Assembly: GCA_947493945.1 (NCBI GenBank)
Contig: CANLSR010000003.1
Coordinates: 124,001-188,000 of the forward strand
DNA from: an uncultured bacterium
Lineage (GTDB): Bacteria; Bacteroidota; Rhodothermia; Rhodothermales; Rubricoccaceae
DNA length: 64,000 bases
Direction: 5' to 3'
The notes beneath the pieces were generated by a model. That model saw nothing but the letters and a program-made list of their open reading frames with translations, was not told the DNA's origin and did not search any database. Shown here piece by piece: positions 27,663 through 34,157 of this stretch (position 1 is the first letter of the stretch; every line of letters begins with the position of its first letter). Both the position numbers and the translations under genes were made by a program.

Positions 27663-28265
27663 CTACGGGTTGGCGTGCGGGGTGGGGTCGGCGGCTCGCA
27701 TCCAGTCCACGAAGGCGTCGAGGGCGCGGCCGCGGTGGCTGATCTGGTTCTTCTCCTCCGCCGACATCTGGGCGAACGTGCGGCCGTCGCCCTCGACGGG
27801 CCGGAACACGGAGTCGTAGCCGAAGCCGGCCGTCCCGGCCTCCTCGGTCGCGACGATCCCCTCGCACACGCCCTCGAACGTGCGGACCCCATCCTCGTCG
27901 GCGTAGGCCAGGACTGTGCGGAAGCGGGCCGTCCGGGTCTCGGCGCCGGCGAGGTCGGCGAGCAGCTTGCGCCGGTTGTCGTTCGAGTCCGCGTTAGACC
28001 CAGCAAACCGAGCCGAGTGGACGCCGGGGGCGCCGCCCAAGGCATCGACCTCCAGGCCGGTGTCGTCCGCCAGCGCGGGGTCGCCGGCGTGCTCCCAGAG
28101 CGCGAGCGCCTTTTTGGTGGCGTTGCCCGCGAGCGTGTCGGCGTCCTCGTCCACCTCGGGCGCGCCGAGGCTGGCGGCGGTGACCAGCGAGACGTCGAGG
28201 CCGTCGAGGCGGACGGACAGCTCGCTGATCTTGCCGGGGTTGCGGGTGGCGAGGACGATGGTCAT
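27663..28265 (-). CDS. rdgB: dITP/XTP pyrophosphatase (Ham1/RdgB family)
   Basis: The 200-residue protein begins MTIVLATRNPGKISEL, the normal RdgB N-terminus, so I start at ATG 28265 and not at the track start. It has LADDTGLEVDALGGAPGVHSARFAG, AGFGYDSVFRP and NQISHRGRAL, the substrate and Mg-binding motifs. It removes dITP, XTP and similar non-canonical purines from the nucleotide pool. An eight-copy 7-bp tandem repeat lies directly upstream of the start codon and may affect its expression. Confidence 0.95.
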   Translation of the reverse strand: MTIVLATRNPGKISELSVRLDGLDVSLVTAASLGAPEVDEDADTLAGNATKKALALWEHAGDPALADDTGLEVDALGGAPGVHSARFAGSNADSNDNRRKLLADLAGAETRTARFRTVLAYADEDGVRTFEGVCEGIVATEEAGTAGFGYDSVFRPVEGDGRTFAQMSAEEKNQISHRGRALDAFVDWMRAADPTPHANP

Positions 28266-28271
28266 GGGTGC

Positions 28272-28327
28272 GGGAAGCGGGAAGCGGGAAGCGGGAAGCG
28301 GGAAGCGGGAAGCGGGAAGCGGGAAGC
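28272..28327. repeat. Eight perfect tandem copies of GGGAAGC directly upstream of rdgB
   Basis: The 7-mer repeats exactly eight times over 56 nt. On the rdgB strand it reads (GCTTCCC)8 and ends 6 nt before the ATG, placing it in the leader or promoter. Copy-number change would alter leader length by 7-nt steps. Confidence 0.95.
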
Positions 28328-28862: not shown

Positions 28863-31013
28863 CTACCGATCCCGTGGCAGCCGGAACGGGACGGAGATCG
28901 AGTGCCGCACGCGCACCGGCCGGCCGTCCTGGCGACCAGGCGTAAACCGGCTGGCGCGGACGGCGGCGAGCGCGGCCTCCGACAGACGGTCGTCGGGCGA
29001 GCGCAGGACCTCCAGGTCCGACGGCCGCCCTTCGTCGTCCACGATCAGCCCGACGATCACGAGCCCCTCGACGCCGTCGCGGCGGGCGCCCGGCGGGTAG
29101 TCGATGCGGGACCGGAGCGCCTGCGGGCCTCCGACCAGTTGCGGCTGCGTCTCGGCCACCTCCAGAACTTCTGGCCGCCCCGCTGGCGGCAGCGGTGGAG
29201 CGGGCGGCGAGTCGGCTCCGGTGTCGTACACCCGAGCGCCCCAGAGCGCCCGGCTGTCCGGCCCGAAGTCGCCGTAGGAGCGGCTCTCGTCGGTGCGGTA
29301 GCGCAGAACGTAGCGCCCTGGAACCAGCGTGATCTGGCCTCGGAAGCGGCGATGGAGAAGCTCATCGCCGGCCGGCGTCGTGTTGTCCCACGTCATCGAC
29401 CAGACCTCCGCCCCGTCCTCCTGTTCGATCGCGGCGTAGTCGTAGCGCTGGGTGTCGGAGATCTCGCCAGCGGCGATCACCAGCAGCTCGGCGTCCTGGC
29501 TCAGCACGAACGGCACGCGACGGTCCTGACCGTCCCCGACGGAGTCAGCAGCGGCCAGCAGCCCGGACGTGGGATAGCCGAGCTGCGGCGGGGTGGAGTC
29601 CAGGCCGTCCACCTCGGGCGACACGTCGCGGGCGTCGAAGGCCTCCAAGTCGATGTCGGGGTCGAGGGCGTAGAGCACGGCGCCCCACAGCGGCGCATCC
29701 GGCCCGCCGTCGCCGTTGTAGCCGCCGACGCAGTCGTGCGAGCCGTCGGTGCGGTAGCGCAGGCGGTAGGTGCCCGGCTCCAGCGTGAGCGCCTGGACCG
29801 CGCGGCGGTTTTTGTCGTCGCCGCCGGCGGGCATGGTGCCGTCGCGCATCTCCCAGACCTCGTCCCAGTGGTCGCTGGTGCGGCGCTCGATCTCGGCCCA
29901 ATCGTACTGCGAGCCCGAGTCGATCTCGCCGACGGCGACCACCAGCACGTCGGTCGCGGCCGGGACGGTAAACTCCGACTGGCGGTCGGCGTCGGGGCCG
30001 ACGCACTCGAAGGCGGCGATCACCGGCAGGTCGAGGGCAGCGGGGTCCAGCACCGTTACCGCCGCATCGGGCGTGGCGCGGCTCACCGCCATCCCCCACT
30101 CCCAGGGCTGCCAGGGCGGGTTGGCGGCCCAGGCGCCGTAGCCGTGCGAGCGGTCGGCGTCGAAGGCGACCCGGTAGATCCCCGGCTCCAGGGCCACCTC
30201 GGCCTCGACGATCTGGTTTTTGAGCGACCCGCCCGCCCAGGCCGTGCCCTCGGCCGAGGCCGTCCAGACGGTGTCGCGCCGGCCCAGGCGTACGATGGAG
30301 GGGACATCGGCCACGACGCGGTCGGTGATCTCGGTGACCGCGCGGACGGCCACGCGCGCCGGCGCGGTCACCGAGAGCAGCACCTCAGGACGCGACCGGT
30401 TGCGGACGCCGCGTGCCTGCCAGATCCGCAGCGAGTCCGGGGCCGGCTCGGCGTCCGCCGGGTCGCGGGGAGACGCTGGCGACTCGGCCGACCGTGCGGC
30501 ATCGTCGGCCGGACGCACGTGGAGGTGCCAGCGCGCCGCCTCGCCCACCCACGACCGCCCGCCCCGGCTCAGGAAGGCGCGGACGCGCTCGCCCAGCGAC
30601 CCGTCGCGCGGGCCGGGGTCGCGCACCAGCGGGTCGCCGTAGCTGGCGAAGTAGACGTCGTAGGTGCCGGCCGCCAGCCGGACGGTGTCGACGGCGCTCA
30701 CCAGCGTGCCGCGCGCCGGCCTCGGCGGCCGGAGCCGCCAGACGACGGCGCCGTCGTCGCGGCGCACGATCCAGCCGGTCGCGGCCATCGTGGTGTCGGA
30801 GGCCGGCGTGCCGGCTTCCTCGTACGAGCCGGACGCGTCGATGGCCAGCGCCCCCGGCGCGCCGAGTTGGAACGAGTCGTGCGCCAGGTCGTCGGCCTCC
30901 AGGCCGTCGAGCGAGACCAGCGTCCCGCTCGGCCCCGACGCCAGCCGCACGACGGCGACGACGGCGACCACGAGCAGGCCGACGAGCAGGAGGCGGGAGA
31001 CGAGGGTGCGCAC
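28863..31013 (-). CDS. TonB-domain protein with four repeated periplasmic modules
   Basis: The 716-residue protein has an N-terminal membrane anchor (LVSRLLLVGLLVVAVVAVVRL). A C-terminal TonB/energy-transducer domain spans about 620-712 (RIDYPPGARRDGVEGLVIVG, then EAALAAVRASRFTPGRQDGRPV). Between them are four divergent copies of one module (about 45-125, 208-312, 346-450, 500-598). The clearest copies read IERR..DEVWEMRDGTMPAGG, then LEPGTYRLRYRTDGSHD and PLWGAVLY. TonB proteins normally carry a short Pro-rich linker; a folded repeat array is unusual. It may bind a ligand or wall component while contacting a TonB-dependent receptor. Start is GTG. No exbB/exbD is nearby. Confidence 0.75.
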   Translation of the reverse strand: MRTLVSRLLLVGLLVVAVVAVVRLASGPSGTLVSLDGLEADDLAHDSFQLGAPGALAIDASGSYEEAGTPASDTTMAATGWIVRRDDGAVVWRLRPPRPARGTLVSAVDTVRLAAGTYDVYFASYGDPLVRDPGPRDGSLGERVRAFLSRGGRSWVGEAARWHLHVRPADDAARSAESPASPRDPADAEPAPDSLRIWQARGVRNRSRPEVLLSVTAPARVAVRAVTEITDRVVADVPSIVRLGRRDTVWTASAEGTAWAGGSLKNQIVEAEVALEPGIYRVAFDADRSHGYGAWAANPPWQPWEWGMAVSRATPDAAVTVLDPAALDLPVIAAFECVGPDADRQSEFTVPAATDVLVVAVGEIDSGSQYDWAEIERRTSDHWDEVWEMRDGTMPAGGDDKNRRAVQALTLEPGTYRLRYRTDGSHDCVGGYNGDGGPDAPLWGAVLYALDPDIDLEAFDARDVSPEVDGLDSTPPQLGYPTSGLLAAADSVGDGQDRRVPFVLSQDAELLVIAAGEISDTQRYDYAAIEQEDGAEVWSMTWDNTTPAGDELLHRRFRGQITLVPGRYVLRYRTDESRSYGDFGPDSRALWGARVYDTGADSPPAPPLPPAGRPEVLEVAETQPQLVGGPQALRSRIDYPPGARRDGVEGLVIVGLIVDDEGRPSDLEVLRSPDDRLSEAALAAVRASRFTPGRQDGRPVRVRHSISVPFRLPRDR

Positions 31014-31077
31014 GGGGCGGGGGGCAGACGGAGGCGCTACGGGCCGCCGTCGTCAGGGTTGCCGGCCACCGGCCGGA

Positions 31078-31085
31078 TATATTCG
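31078..31085 (+). promoter_or_regulatory. Putative -7 element TATATTCG for the partner-switch operon
   Basis: TATATTCG is an AT-rich island in very GC-rich sequence about 50 nt before the proposed PP2C start, with a TTG 16 nt upstream. It is close to TAnnTTTG. Confidence 0.45.
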
Positions 31086-31135
31086 CAACTCTGCGACCAC
31101 GCGCCCCGAACACGGCGCCCGCCCCCTCCCCCGCC

Positions 31136-33403
31136 CTGGCCACGACGCTTCCCCTCCGCCGCTCGCTCCGCGCCGTCGCCGCCACCGGCCCGCGCCGCGC
31201 CGGGCTGGCGGCGTTGGCCGTGGCCGGGCTGGCGGCCGTCGCCGGCGTGCGCGTGTGGGGAGCGGCCCGGGCCGTCGGCGCGCTGGGCGAGGGCGTAGCG
31301 TTGGGGCTGGACCTCGGGGCGGTGCTGGCGGTCGTGCTCGCCTACGCGGCGCTGGCCGCCCCCCGGCCGCCGGGGACCGGGGCGCTGCGGGCGCTCTCGG
31401 TCCCGCTGGCGGCGGCCGTCGCCGTGCTGGGCCTGGCGGTGGCGGCGGGCCTGGTCGACCGCGGGGCCCTCGACCCCAAGACGGCGCTGCCCACGACTCT
31501 GGCGACGGCCGGCTGGGCCGGCGTGGTGGGGCTGGCCGAGGCCGGGCTGGCGGCCGTGGTGCTCGCGAGCCTGCGGCCGCTCGTGCTCCACCGGCGGCGC
31601 CCGGCGACGGTCTGGGCCTGGCTCGCGCTGCTGGTGCTGGGCCTGGCCTCGGGGCTGGCCGTCGCCGGCCGGCCGCCGTCGCCCTACCCGCCCACCGCGA
31701 CGGTCCCGTTCCTGGCCGGAGCGGTGGTCGTGGGGACCGGGCTCGCGCTCCGCCAGCGCTGGGTGGGCGCGCTCACCTCGGGGCAGAGGCTGGGCGCGGC
31801 GGGGCTGTCGCTCGCGCTCGCCGGTGCGCTCCTCGGGCTGATCTACGTCCAGACCGCCGGCCCCGCGGTCCTGCTCGTCGGCGACGGCAGCGGCGAGGTC
31901 GAGTCGGTGTCCTACGCCACGGGCCTGAGCCGCTCGCTGGGCGTCGTGACCACGTTGGCGCTGGCCTGGGGCGGGCTCTACAGCCTCACCGCCGCGCTCG
32001 TGCTGCTGCTCGGGCTGCCCTCCGCCGACCGCCAGGACCAGCGGGTCGGCGAGCGGCAGGCGCTGCGCTCGCTCGCCGACCTCTCGGGCCGCCTGCTCGA
32101 ACGCGGCGCCCTCGCCGACGCCATCGCCCGGGGCCCCGTCGAGGCCGGCCTGGCCGACGCCGCCTGGGTCGCCCTCACCGACCCGGCACGCGGGACGTTG
32201 ACGCCCGCCGTGGTCGCGGCCCAGGGCGCGAGCCTGGAGGACGCCGCCCGCGCCGCCGACACCGGGGCCCTCTACCGCGCCGCCCTCGCCCAGGACGCGC
32301 CCCTCGTGCTGGGCCGCGCCGAGGCCGACCACCGCGTCCGCGCTCGGCCCGGCGACGGCGTGGCCAGCCTGGCGGCGCTGCCCCTGGGCAGCCCCGGCGC
32401 CGGCCCCGGCGGCGTCACGCGCGGGGTCCTGGTGGTGACACGGAAAACACCCGAGGCCTTCGAGCCCGACGACCTGGCCGCGCTCGACACGTTCGCCGGC
32501 CAGGCCGCGCTCTCTCTCTCCCACGCCGACCTGTTCGCCGACGCGCTCGAACGCGAGCGGCTGGCGCGCGAGCTGGCCCTGGCGCGCGAGGTTCAGCAGC
32601 GGCTGCTGCCCCAGTCGCTGCCCCAGATCGACGGGCTGGAGCTGGCGGCGGCCGAGCGGCCGGCGCGCGAGGTCGGCGGCGACTACTACGACGTGGTCCG
32701 GCTGGGCGACGACTGCCTGGGGCTGATCGTGGCCGACGTGTCGGGCAAGGGGGCCGCGGCGGCGTTCTACATGGCCGAGATGAAGGGGGTGTTCCAGGCC
32801 GGCAGCCGGCTGACGCGCGCGCCGGGCGAGCTGCTGGCGGGCGCCAACGACGCGCTGTCGCCGTCGCTCGGCCGGGGCGTGTTCGCCTCGGCCGTCTACG
32901 CCGTCCTCGACGCCGAGGCCGGGACGCTGGCCCTGGCGCGCGCCGGCCACACGCCCACGCTGCTCGTCCGCGACCGCGAGCGGCCCGACGGCGGGCGCTG
33001 GATGTTGCGCGGCGACGGGCTGGCCATCGGGCTGGACCGCCGCGGCGACCTGTTCCGCCAGACGCTCGTGGAGCAGACCGTGCGCCTGGCGCCCGGCGAC
33101 ACCGTGGTCCTGTACACGGACGGCCTGGTCGAGGCGCGCGACCACGCCGGCGAGGAGTACGGCTACGACCGGCTGGCGGCGTTCGTGGACGGACAGCGCG
33201 GCGCCGACGCGGCGACCCTGCGCGACCGCCTGCTCGCCGAGCACCGCGCGTGGGCCGGCCGCGACGACCCCGACGACGACACGACGTTCGTGGTCGTCCG
33301 CTGGACCGGCCGGGGCGGCGGGGTCGCACCGGCCGACGTCGCCAGCGGGCCACCCGTCACCGAGCGCCCGGCCTTTCCATCCGCCCAACCCCCGCTTCCA
33401 TGA
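31136..33403 (+). CDS. Membrane-anchored PP2C-type (SpoIIE/RsbU) phosphatase with GAF-like domain
   Basis: The roughly 755-residue protein has several N-terminal membrane helices (about residues 1-300), a GAF-like segment (about 310-455), a short coiled stretch, and a C-terminal PP2C domain. Its metal-binding motifs are REVGGDYYDVV, LIVADVSGKGAAA, DTVVLYTDGLVEAR and DDDTTFVVVR. It would dephosphorylate the STAS protein encoded next, in response to an envelope signal. The start is uncertain: no ATG or GTG fits, so CTG 31136 or a nearby TTG is needed. The stop overlaps the STAS start (ATGA). Confidence 0.85.
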   Translation: MATTLPLRRSLRAVAATGPRRAGLAALAVAGLAAVAGVRVWGAARAVGALGEGVALGLDLGAVLAVVLAYAALAAPRPPGTGALRALSVPLAAAVAVLGLAVAAGLVDRGALDPKTALPTTLATAGWAGVVGLAEAGLAAVVLASLRPLVLHRRRPATVWAWLALLVLGLASGLAVAGRPPSPYPPTATVPFLAGAVVVGTGLALRQRWVGALTSGQRLGAAGLSLALAGALLGLIYVQTAGPAVLLVGDGSGEVESVSYATGLSRSLGVVTTLALAWGGLYSLTAALVLLLGLPSADRQDQRVGERQALRSLADLSGRLLERGALADAIARGPVEAGLADAAWVALTDPARGTLTPAVVAAQGASLEDAARAADTGALYRAALAQDAPLVLGRAEADHRVRARPGDGVASLAALPLGSPGAGPGGVTRGVLVVTRKTPEAFEPDDLAALDTFAGQAALSLSHADLFADALERERLARELALAREVQQRLLPQSLPQIDGLELAAAERPAREVGGDYYDVVRLGDDCLGLIVADVSGKGAAAAFYMAEMKGVFQAGSRLTRAPGELLAGANDALSPSLGRGVFASAVYAVLDAEAGTLALARAGHTPTLLVRDRERPDGGRWMLRGDGLAIGLDRRGDLFRQTLVEQTVRLAPGDTVVLYTDGLVEARDHAGEEYGYDRLAAFVDGQRGADAATLRDRLLAEHRAWAGRDDPDDDTTFVVVRWTGRGGGVAPADVASGPPVTERPAFPSAQPPLP

Positions 33404-33750
33404 GCCACTTTTCCGTCTCCTTCGACCGCCGCGTCGGCCAGCCTCCGGTGCGCCTGCTCGCGCTCACCGGCGAGCTCGACGCCCACACCGCCCCCGACTT
33501 CGAGGCCGCGCTCCAGGCCTGCCTCGACGACGGCGACGTGCGCCTGGTGGCCGACGGCTCGGGCCTGGACTACGTGTCGTCGGCCGGGCTCGGGGTGTTC
33601 ATGGCGTTCGTGGAGCCAGCCCGCGACGGCGGCGGCGACCTCAAGATCGCGGCGCTGCCCGGGCGCGTGTTCGAGGTGTTCGACCTGCTCGGCTTCCCGA
33701 CGGTGTTCGACATGCACCCCACCGTCGACGCGGCCGTCGCGTCGTTCTGA
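33400..33750 (+). CDS. STAS-domain anti-sigma factor antagonist
   Basis: The 116-residue protein is a single STAS domain. It has LALTGELDAHTAPDFEAAL and the phosphorylation-site loop LDYVSSAGLGVFM, in which one of the serines would be phosphorylated by the kinase encoded next and dephosphorylated by the PP2C protein upstream. In the unphosphorylated form it would bind the anti-sigma kinase and free its sigma factor. It overlaps both neighbours (ATGA upstream, TGATG downstream), so the three proteins are translationally coupled. Confidence 0.9.
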   Translation: MSHFSVSFDRRVGQPPVRLLALTGELDAHTAPDFEAALQACLDDGDVRLVADGSGLDYVSSAGLGVFMAFVEPARDGGGDLKIAALPGRVFEVFDLLGFPTVFDMHPTVDAAVASF

Positions 33751-34157
33751 TGGCGCCCCCCCAGGCCCTGCACGTGCGCGCAGACACGGACGAGCTGGTC
33801 CGGGTCCGACGCCGCGTGGGGCGCTGGGCGCAGGGGGCCGGGCTGTCGGAGGCGGCGGCGCGCCGGCTGGTGCTGGCCGTCGACGAGACGGTGGCCAACG
33901 CCATCGAGCACAGCCTGGAGCCCGGCGCGCGCATCGTGATCGGCGCCGAGGCCCGGCCCGGCCGCTTGACCGTCGCCGTCCGCTACCGCGGCCCGCGCTT
34001 CGACCCCACCACGGCGCCGACGCCGACGCGCGCCGACACGCTCCGCCAGCGGGCCGCCGGCGGCTACGGCCTCCACCTGATCCGCTCGCTCGCCGACGCG
34101 GCGGCCTACCGCTGGGACGGCGGCACCAACGAGGTGCGCCTCACCGTCGAGGGCTAG
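33750..34157 (+). CDS. RsbW-type anti-sigma factor serine kinase
   Basis: The 135-residue protein has a GHKL ATPase fold with the N-box LAVDETVANAIEHSLEPG and the glycine-rich GGYGLHLIRSLAD near the end. This is the standard build of RsbW/SpoIIAB-like kinases that both phosphorylate a STAS partner and sequester a sigma factor. No sigma factor gene is adjacent, so the target is encoded elsewhere or is not a sigma factor. The short 34158-34228 gap to convergent smpB holds no clear terminator. Confidence 0.9.
   Translation: MAPPQALHVRADTDELVRVRRRVGRWAQGAGLSEAAARRLVLAVDETVANAIEHSLEPGARIVIGAEARPGRLTVAVRYRGPRFDPTTAPTPTRADTLRQRAAGGYGLHLIRSLADAAAYRWDGGTNEVRLTVEG

Follow-up and report, generated by a model that had tools for sequence, protein, structure and literature searches.

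On balance we favour a reading of the four-module, signal-anchored protein encoded at positions 28863-31013 (minus strand) of the window as a partner of the RsbU-type membrane phosphatase encoded divergently beside it, with a sensing or regulatory role outside the cytoplasm. The window is the whole 64,000 nucleotide stretch analysed here, from the genome of an uncultured bacterium of the Rubricoccaceae (Rhodothermales). The ORF of 716 amino acids begins with a GTG start codon and is laid out as a membrane anchor, four modules and a C-terminal TonB_C domain. The features of the gene and of the adjacent partner-switching cassette are as follows.

28878..29105, minus strand: TonB_C domain (aa 637-712; PF03544), a lineage-specific C-terminal fusion
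29106..29213, minus strand: short proline-containing linker (aa 601-636), predicted to be disordered (pLDDT < 50 at aa 601-648)
29214..29582, minus strand: module 4 (M4; aa 478-600), from hhalign
29649..30038, minus strand: module 3 (M3; aa 326-455), an eight-stranded beta-sandwich, from hhalign to M4 and a structure model
30054..30431, minus strand: module 2 (M2; aa 195-320), from hhalign to M3 and M4
30504..30917, minus strand: module 1 (M1; aa 33-170), the most divergent copy, from hhalign to M2, M3 and M4
30936..31013, minus strand: N-terminal membrane anchor (aa 1-26), a cytoplasm-to-periplasm signal anchor (hydropathy peak 2.86 at aa 4-22; model helix 2-26)
31014..31156, no strand: short divergent (head-to-head) intergenic region common to the gene and the phosphatase gene
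31157..33403, plus strand: RsbU-type phosphatase with about 8 TM-like segments (hydropathy), GAF (30.5 bits) and SpoIIE/PP2C (PF07228, 147.4 bits); 31157 is the start of the scanned stretch, the start codon not being settled
33400..33750, plus strand: STAS protein (RsbV-type anti-sigma-factor antagonist) with a YVSSAGLG motif (PF01740, 57.2 bits), its start overlapping the phosphatase stop
33750..34157, plus strand: RsbW-type HATPase_c_2 protein (PF13581, 85.9 bits), its start overlapping the STAS stop

Residues R2 and R7 lie on the N side of the anchor helix. Elsewhere in the window a short tandem repeat (28240-28320, GSGKREA repeats on the plus strand) is found just upstream of rdgB.

Four copies of one module separate the anchor from the TonB domain

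The first-pass annotation had described a four-copy repeat array between the anchor and the TonB domain, with copies 1 and 2 weaker than the others. Comparison of the four module sub-alignments with hhalign gave profile probabilities of 98.5-100 % for all six module pairs, against 11.5 % for the best of 60 column-shuffled control comparisons, and since the probabilities so far exceed the controls the repeat was correctly observed and is not a product of chance. The strongest pairs were M3-M4 (E 9e-52), M2-M4 (1.4e-41) and M2-M3 (1e-37). Both weaker copies are real by the same comparison, M1 matching M2, M3 and M4 with probabilities of 98.5-98.7 % (E 3e-16 to 3e-15). The modules have in common the motif A.GE...YDygwI...VWxM...T..AGG...NR...L.pG.Y...y.TD.SH..GdF.P..P..WG. 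Structure prediction agrees with the alignments in giving the modules a common fold: the same strand order is repeated in each of the four in an AlphaFold2 model of the full-length protein (mean pLDDT 71.9, mostly 70-92 in the modules), and M3 modelled alone with an alignment of 29 module sequences is an eight-stranded beta-sandwich (pLDDT 92.4, pTM 0.86).

The modules of the window protein returned no Pfam or NCBIfam match above cut-off, the sub-threshold Pfam scores including DUF5013 (15-16 bits against a cut-off of 28.5) and AMPK1_CBM (12.2 against 26.8), and a profile search of the PDB gave no sequence match. Foldseek comparison was based on the single-module model; with the full four-domain model it returned multi-domain beta chains only, for which global superposition is meaningless (rmsd mostly > 15 Å). 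The best solved neighbours of the M3 model are CBM6, PPC/collagen-binding, CUB and GOLD domains (E 8e-4 to 6e-3). The module shares its sandwich topology in general with these folds but differs from them in sequence (identity 7-16 %) and superposes with a TM-score of at most 0.58, and the modelled likeness is to a general binding-module fold rather than a family assignment.

The TonB domain is confined to one member of an order-wide family

The anchor and modules form a family that extends throughout the Rhodothermales, being found in 82 of 114 genomes of the order. Orthologues of aa 1-600 share about 30-62 % identity, keep the N-terminal anchor and end without TonB_C at or soon after roughly residue 600, in some cases with a Pro-rich tail, while M4 is missing from variants of about 450 amino acids in one family of the order (f15). 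The TonB domain of the window protein is real, scoring far above background with both PF03544 (60.9 bits, cut-off 24.6) and TIGR01352 (45.6 bits, cut-off 27.1), and its region is modelled with the expected beta-beta-alpha-beta order. It was found in none of the 22 full-length orthologues and, within the Rubricoccaceae, only in the window's own genome. Because a single one of the 108 module-bearing frames collected has TonB_C, namely the window protein, the other 107 being without it, the domain is a late, lineage-specific addition to a pre-existing family and not its defining feature. On the favoured reading, what the protein does would not rest on TonB_C.

A fusion seen in one genome of a single strain might also be a functionless read-through product of chance or an assembly artefact. 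This is very improbable, as the frame is intact within a 481-kb contig, aa 602-712 (part of the linker included) share 54 % identity with the TonB domains that the genome has elsewhere, the fold is intact in the model and neither of the two congeners has a TonB match beside the gene. That the TonB part arose by a frameshift or from a pseudogene was considered and dropped, because the frame is intact and the congeners lack an adjacent TonB match. A tree of the family's TonB_C domains gave no resolution as to the donor of the fused domain.

The first-pass annotation had further suggested a new class of energy transducer or a periplasmic sensor. As a transducer, the protein would have its anchor driven by ExbB/ExbD, the modules would replace the proline linker as a spacer or ligand binder, and TonB_C would power receptors; about 600 residues could span the periplasm, the TonB_C domain is genuine, and the genome holds three copies of ExbD together with 20 TonB-dependent receptor matches. 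The anchor is nonetheless that of the TonB-less family, matching the orthologues and lacking the N-terminal KTPxAD(L/I)...YP segment conserved in the genome's two classical TonBs, and aa 33-600 consist of four folded modules, Pro-rich residues amounting to only about 15. Since two of the features tested for membership, a TonB-type anchor and a long proline-rich linker, are absent, we regard this explanation as very unlikely. All relatives are moreover without TonB_C and, although the search of the genome for ExbD and receptors, of a kind proposed in the first-pass annotation, was positive, no receptor or ExbBD gene adjoins the gene. The new transducer class is thus not well supported, whereas the suggestion of a sensor is, given that fused sensors carry the module outside the cytoplasm and that the gene is associated with a signalling phosphatase, as described below.

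The same genome also carries TonB_C on proteins that are not transducers, and the domain is mobile there because it occurs on both an M56-like peptidase and a secreted double-TonB_C protein. The former (L035, G000:C3:117201-117506), about 6.5 kb before the window, resembles M56 peptidases and, besides TonB_C, has an additional extension at its C-terminus; the latter (L033, G000:C8:65990-66613) is probably secreted and has two TonB_C domains and no long Pro linker. Frames with two TonB_C domains are present in the congeners G001 and G003. The window protein has the same C-terminal domain as TonB/TonB_C fusions such as the M56-TonB_C proteins but differs from them in its body, that of the four-module family, and in being a fusion seen in this genome only. 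A literature search on TonB fusions yielded nothing relevant.

The gene is linked to a partner-switching cassette

The neighbouring genes encode a PP2C/SpoIIE phosphatase, a STAS antagonist and a HATPase_c_2 anti-sigma kinase, the components of an RsbUVW system. The catalytic Asp motifs of the phosphatase (GDYYD, DVSGKG, DG and DD columns) are invariant or nearly so in its alignment (A4), and the STAS protein carries a predicted phosphorylatable Ser motif, as read from the sequence. Hydropathy indicates a polytopic membrane domain in the phosphatase with no sizeable periplasmic domain. A PADLOC search gave no match.

Among the 114 genomes of the order, 78 have both the gene (four-module or three-module) and a full-length phosphatase, four have the gene only, five the phosphatase only and 27 neither (Fisher p 4.5e-17, a descriptive value as shared ancestry is ignored). 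The two genes are head-to-head in 68 of the 78 genomes that have both, the profile matches being separated by 108-885 bp (mostly 140-360), and STAS and HATPase genes usually follow. The phosphatase lies elsewhere in the genome in at least four of the ten non-adjacent cases (G011, G015, G025 and G036), and several of the others lie on small contigs. Of the four genomes with the gene only, two (L098 and L105, those whose surroundings were examined) still have it head-to-head with the STAS-HATPase pair. Short N-terminal fragments of the gene lie beside the phosphatase at G033:C9:6207-6516 and G054:C66:13827-14024, with a longer copy on another contig in each case, possibly through decay and relocation.

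The main rival to a sensor is that the gene is an output of the switch, a target or effector such as a structural or carbohydrate-binding envelope protein made under stress, co-regulated with the cassette through the divergent promoter. We consider this unlikely, though less so than the transducer. The divergent intergenic region is short and co-regulation from a shared promoter could on its own explain the synteny. The nearest folds of the module, CBM6, PPC and CUB among them, belong to binding modules, in favour of an effector. A point against the sensor is that the phosphatase occurs in five genomes from which the gene is missing. The pattern of co-loss, and the adjacency to STAS-HATPase kept where the phosphatase is gone, count against an effector, as do the fusions found in other classes.

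The module is fused to signalling outputs elsewhere in Bacteroidota

In other Bacteroidota we identified sensors of about 1250-1330 amino acids with one copy of the module inside their Reg_prop propeller region, followed by Y_Y_Y. In a number of these the output is a SpoIIE phosphatase, recognised by Pfam in L087, L088 and L091 and, for L089 and most of L121-L133 (L121-L123, L125-L131 and L133), by a SpoIIE profile. A histidine kinase takes its place in L090, according to Pfam, and in L124, judged from the sequence of its C-terminus. Stand-alone SpoIIE, STAS and HATPase genes adjoin the majority of the SpoIIE-type propeller sensors. Independently of synteny, these fusions put the module at the input end of this type of switch, a position that counts against an effector. 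These one-piece sensors carry a single copy of the module of the window protein, which differs from them in consisting of modules only, four in tandem, with no output domain. A literature search on propeller-SpoIIE sensors found no papers.

Secreted four-module proteins of other classes (L078-L086) mostly have no phosphatase nearby, which speaks against a sensor. In three of them (L079, L080 and L086) the gene is followed by similar-looking genes of about 470 amino acids, with an Omp85/DUF5686 match in L079 and L080; this outer-membrane-barrel-like gene is a different partner and fits an effector more readily. The module was also observed with a serine hydrolase of the beta-lactamase fold, either as the C-terminal part of that protein or immediately downstream of it (L096:4041-5603 and L132:4416-5991).

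A model for periplasmic input to the switch

Two observations give good support to the reading of the four-module protein as a periplasmic sensor: the module occurs within the extracytoplasmic portion of fused sensors, and its gene goes together with that of a signalling phosphatase. In the proposed model, signalling would run inwards: the modules would recognise a ligand or a component of the envelope in the periplasm, binding would alter the contact of the anchor with the membrane domain of the phosphatase, and this physical contact would in turn set dephosphorylation of the STAS protein by the phosphatase. Dephosphorylated STAS would then free the target held by the HATPase kinase, as in classical partner switching. 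Through the TonB_C domain, which a short Pro linker joins to the modules, the sensor may reach the TonB boxes of outer-membrane receptors, a contact that is possible because ExbD and 20 receptor matches are found in the genome. A broader version of this model, in which the module is an undescribed sensory domain that feeds PP2C partner switching throughout Bacteroidota, in trans or fused, and in which TonB_C here passes the state of outer-membrane receptors directly into the switch, is speculative and we think it quite unlikely as a whole.

The adjacent cassette has the same order of phosphatase, STAS protein with serine motif and HATPase_c_2 kinase as the RsbU-RsbV-RsbW systems of Bacillus, Listeria and Chlamydia (PMC8256260), differing in that its input appears to come from a periplasmic protein of four modules encoded apart. 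A precedent for the sensor model, cited in PMC8256260, is an RsbU of Chlamydia whose ligand-binding domain is periplasmic. In the SiaABCD system of Pseudomonas aeruginosa a membrane-bound PP2C phosphatase likewise acts on a small phosphoprotein and is opposed by a kinase (PMC7647112). SiaA combines membrane input and phosphatase in a single polypeptide (two TM segments and HAMP), whereas the phosphatase of the window has about 8 TM-like segments and GAF with the proposed sensor encoded separately.

A literature search found nothing on what partner-switching phosphatases sense in Bacteroidota. The conserved, unnamed periplasmic module described here, tied to such phosphatases by synteny, co-occurrence and fusion, is a concrete candidate for their input, and the TonB_C tail is an example of a TonB domain added to an unrelated signalling protein. 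An annotation of this gene as 'energy transducer TonB' would mislead, as the protein is probably the sensor part of a stress-signalling switch and not a new TonB.
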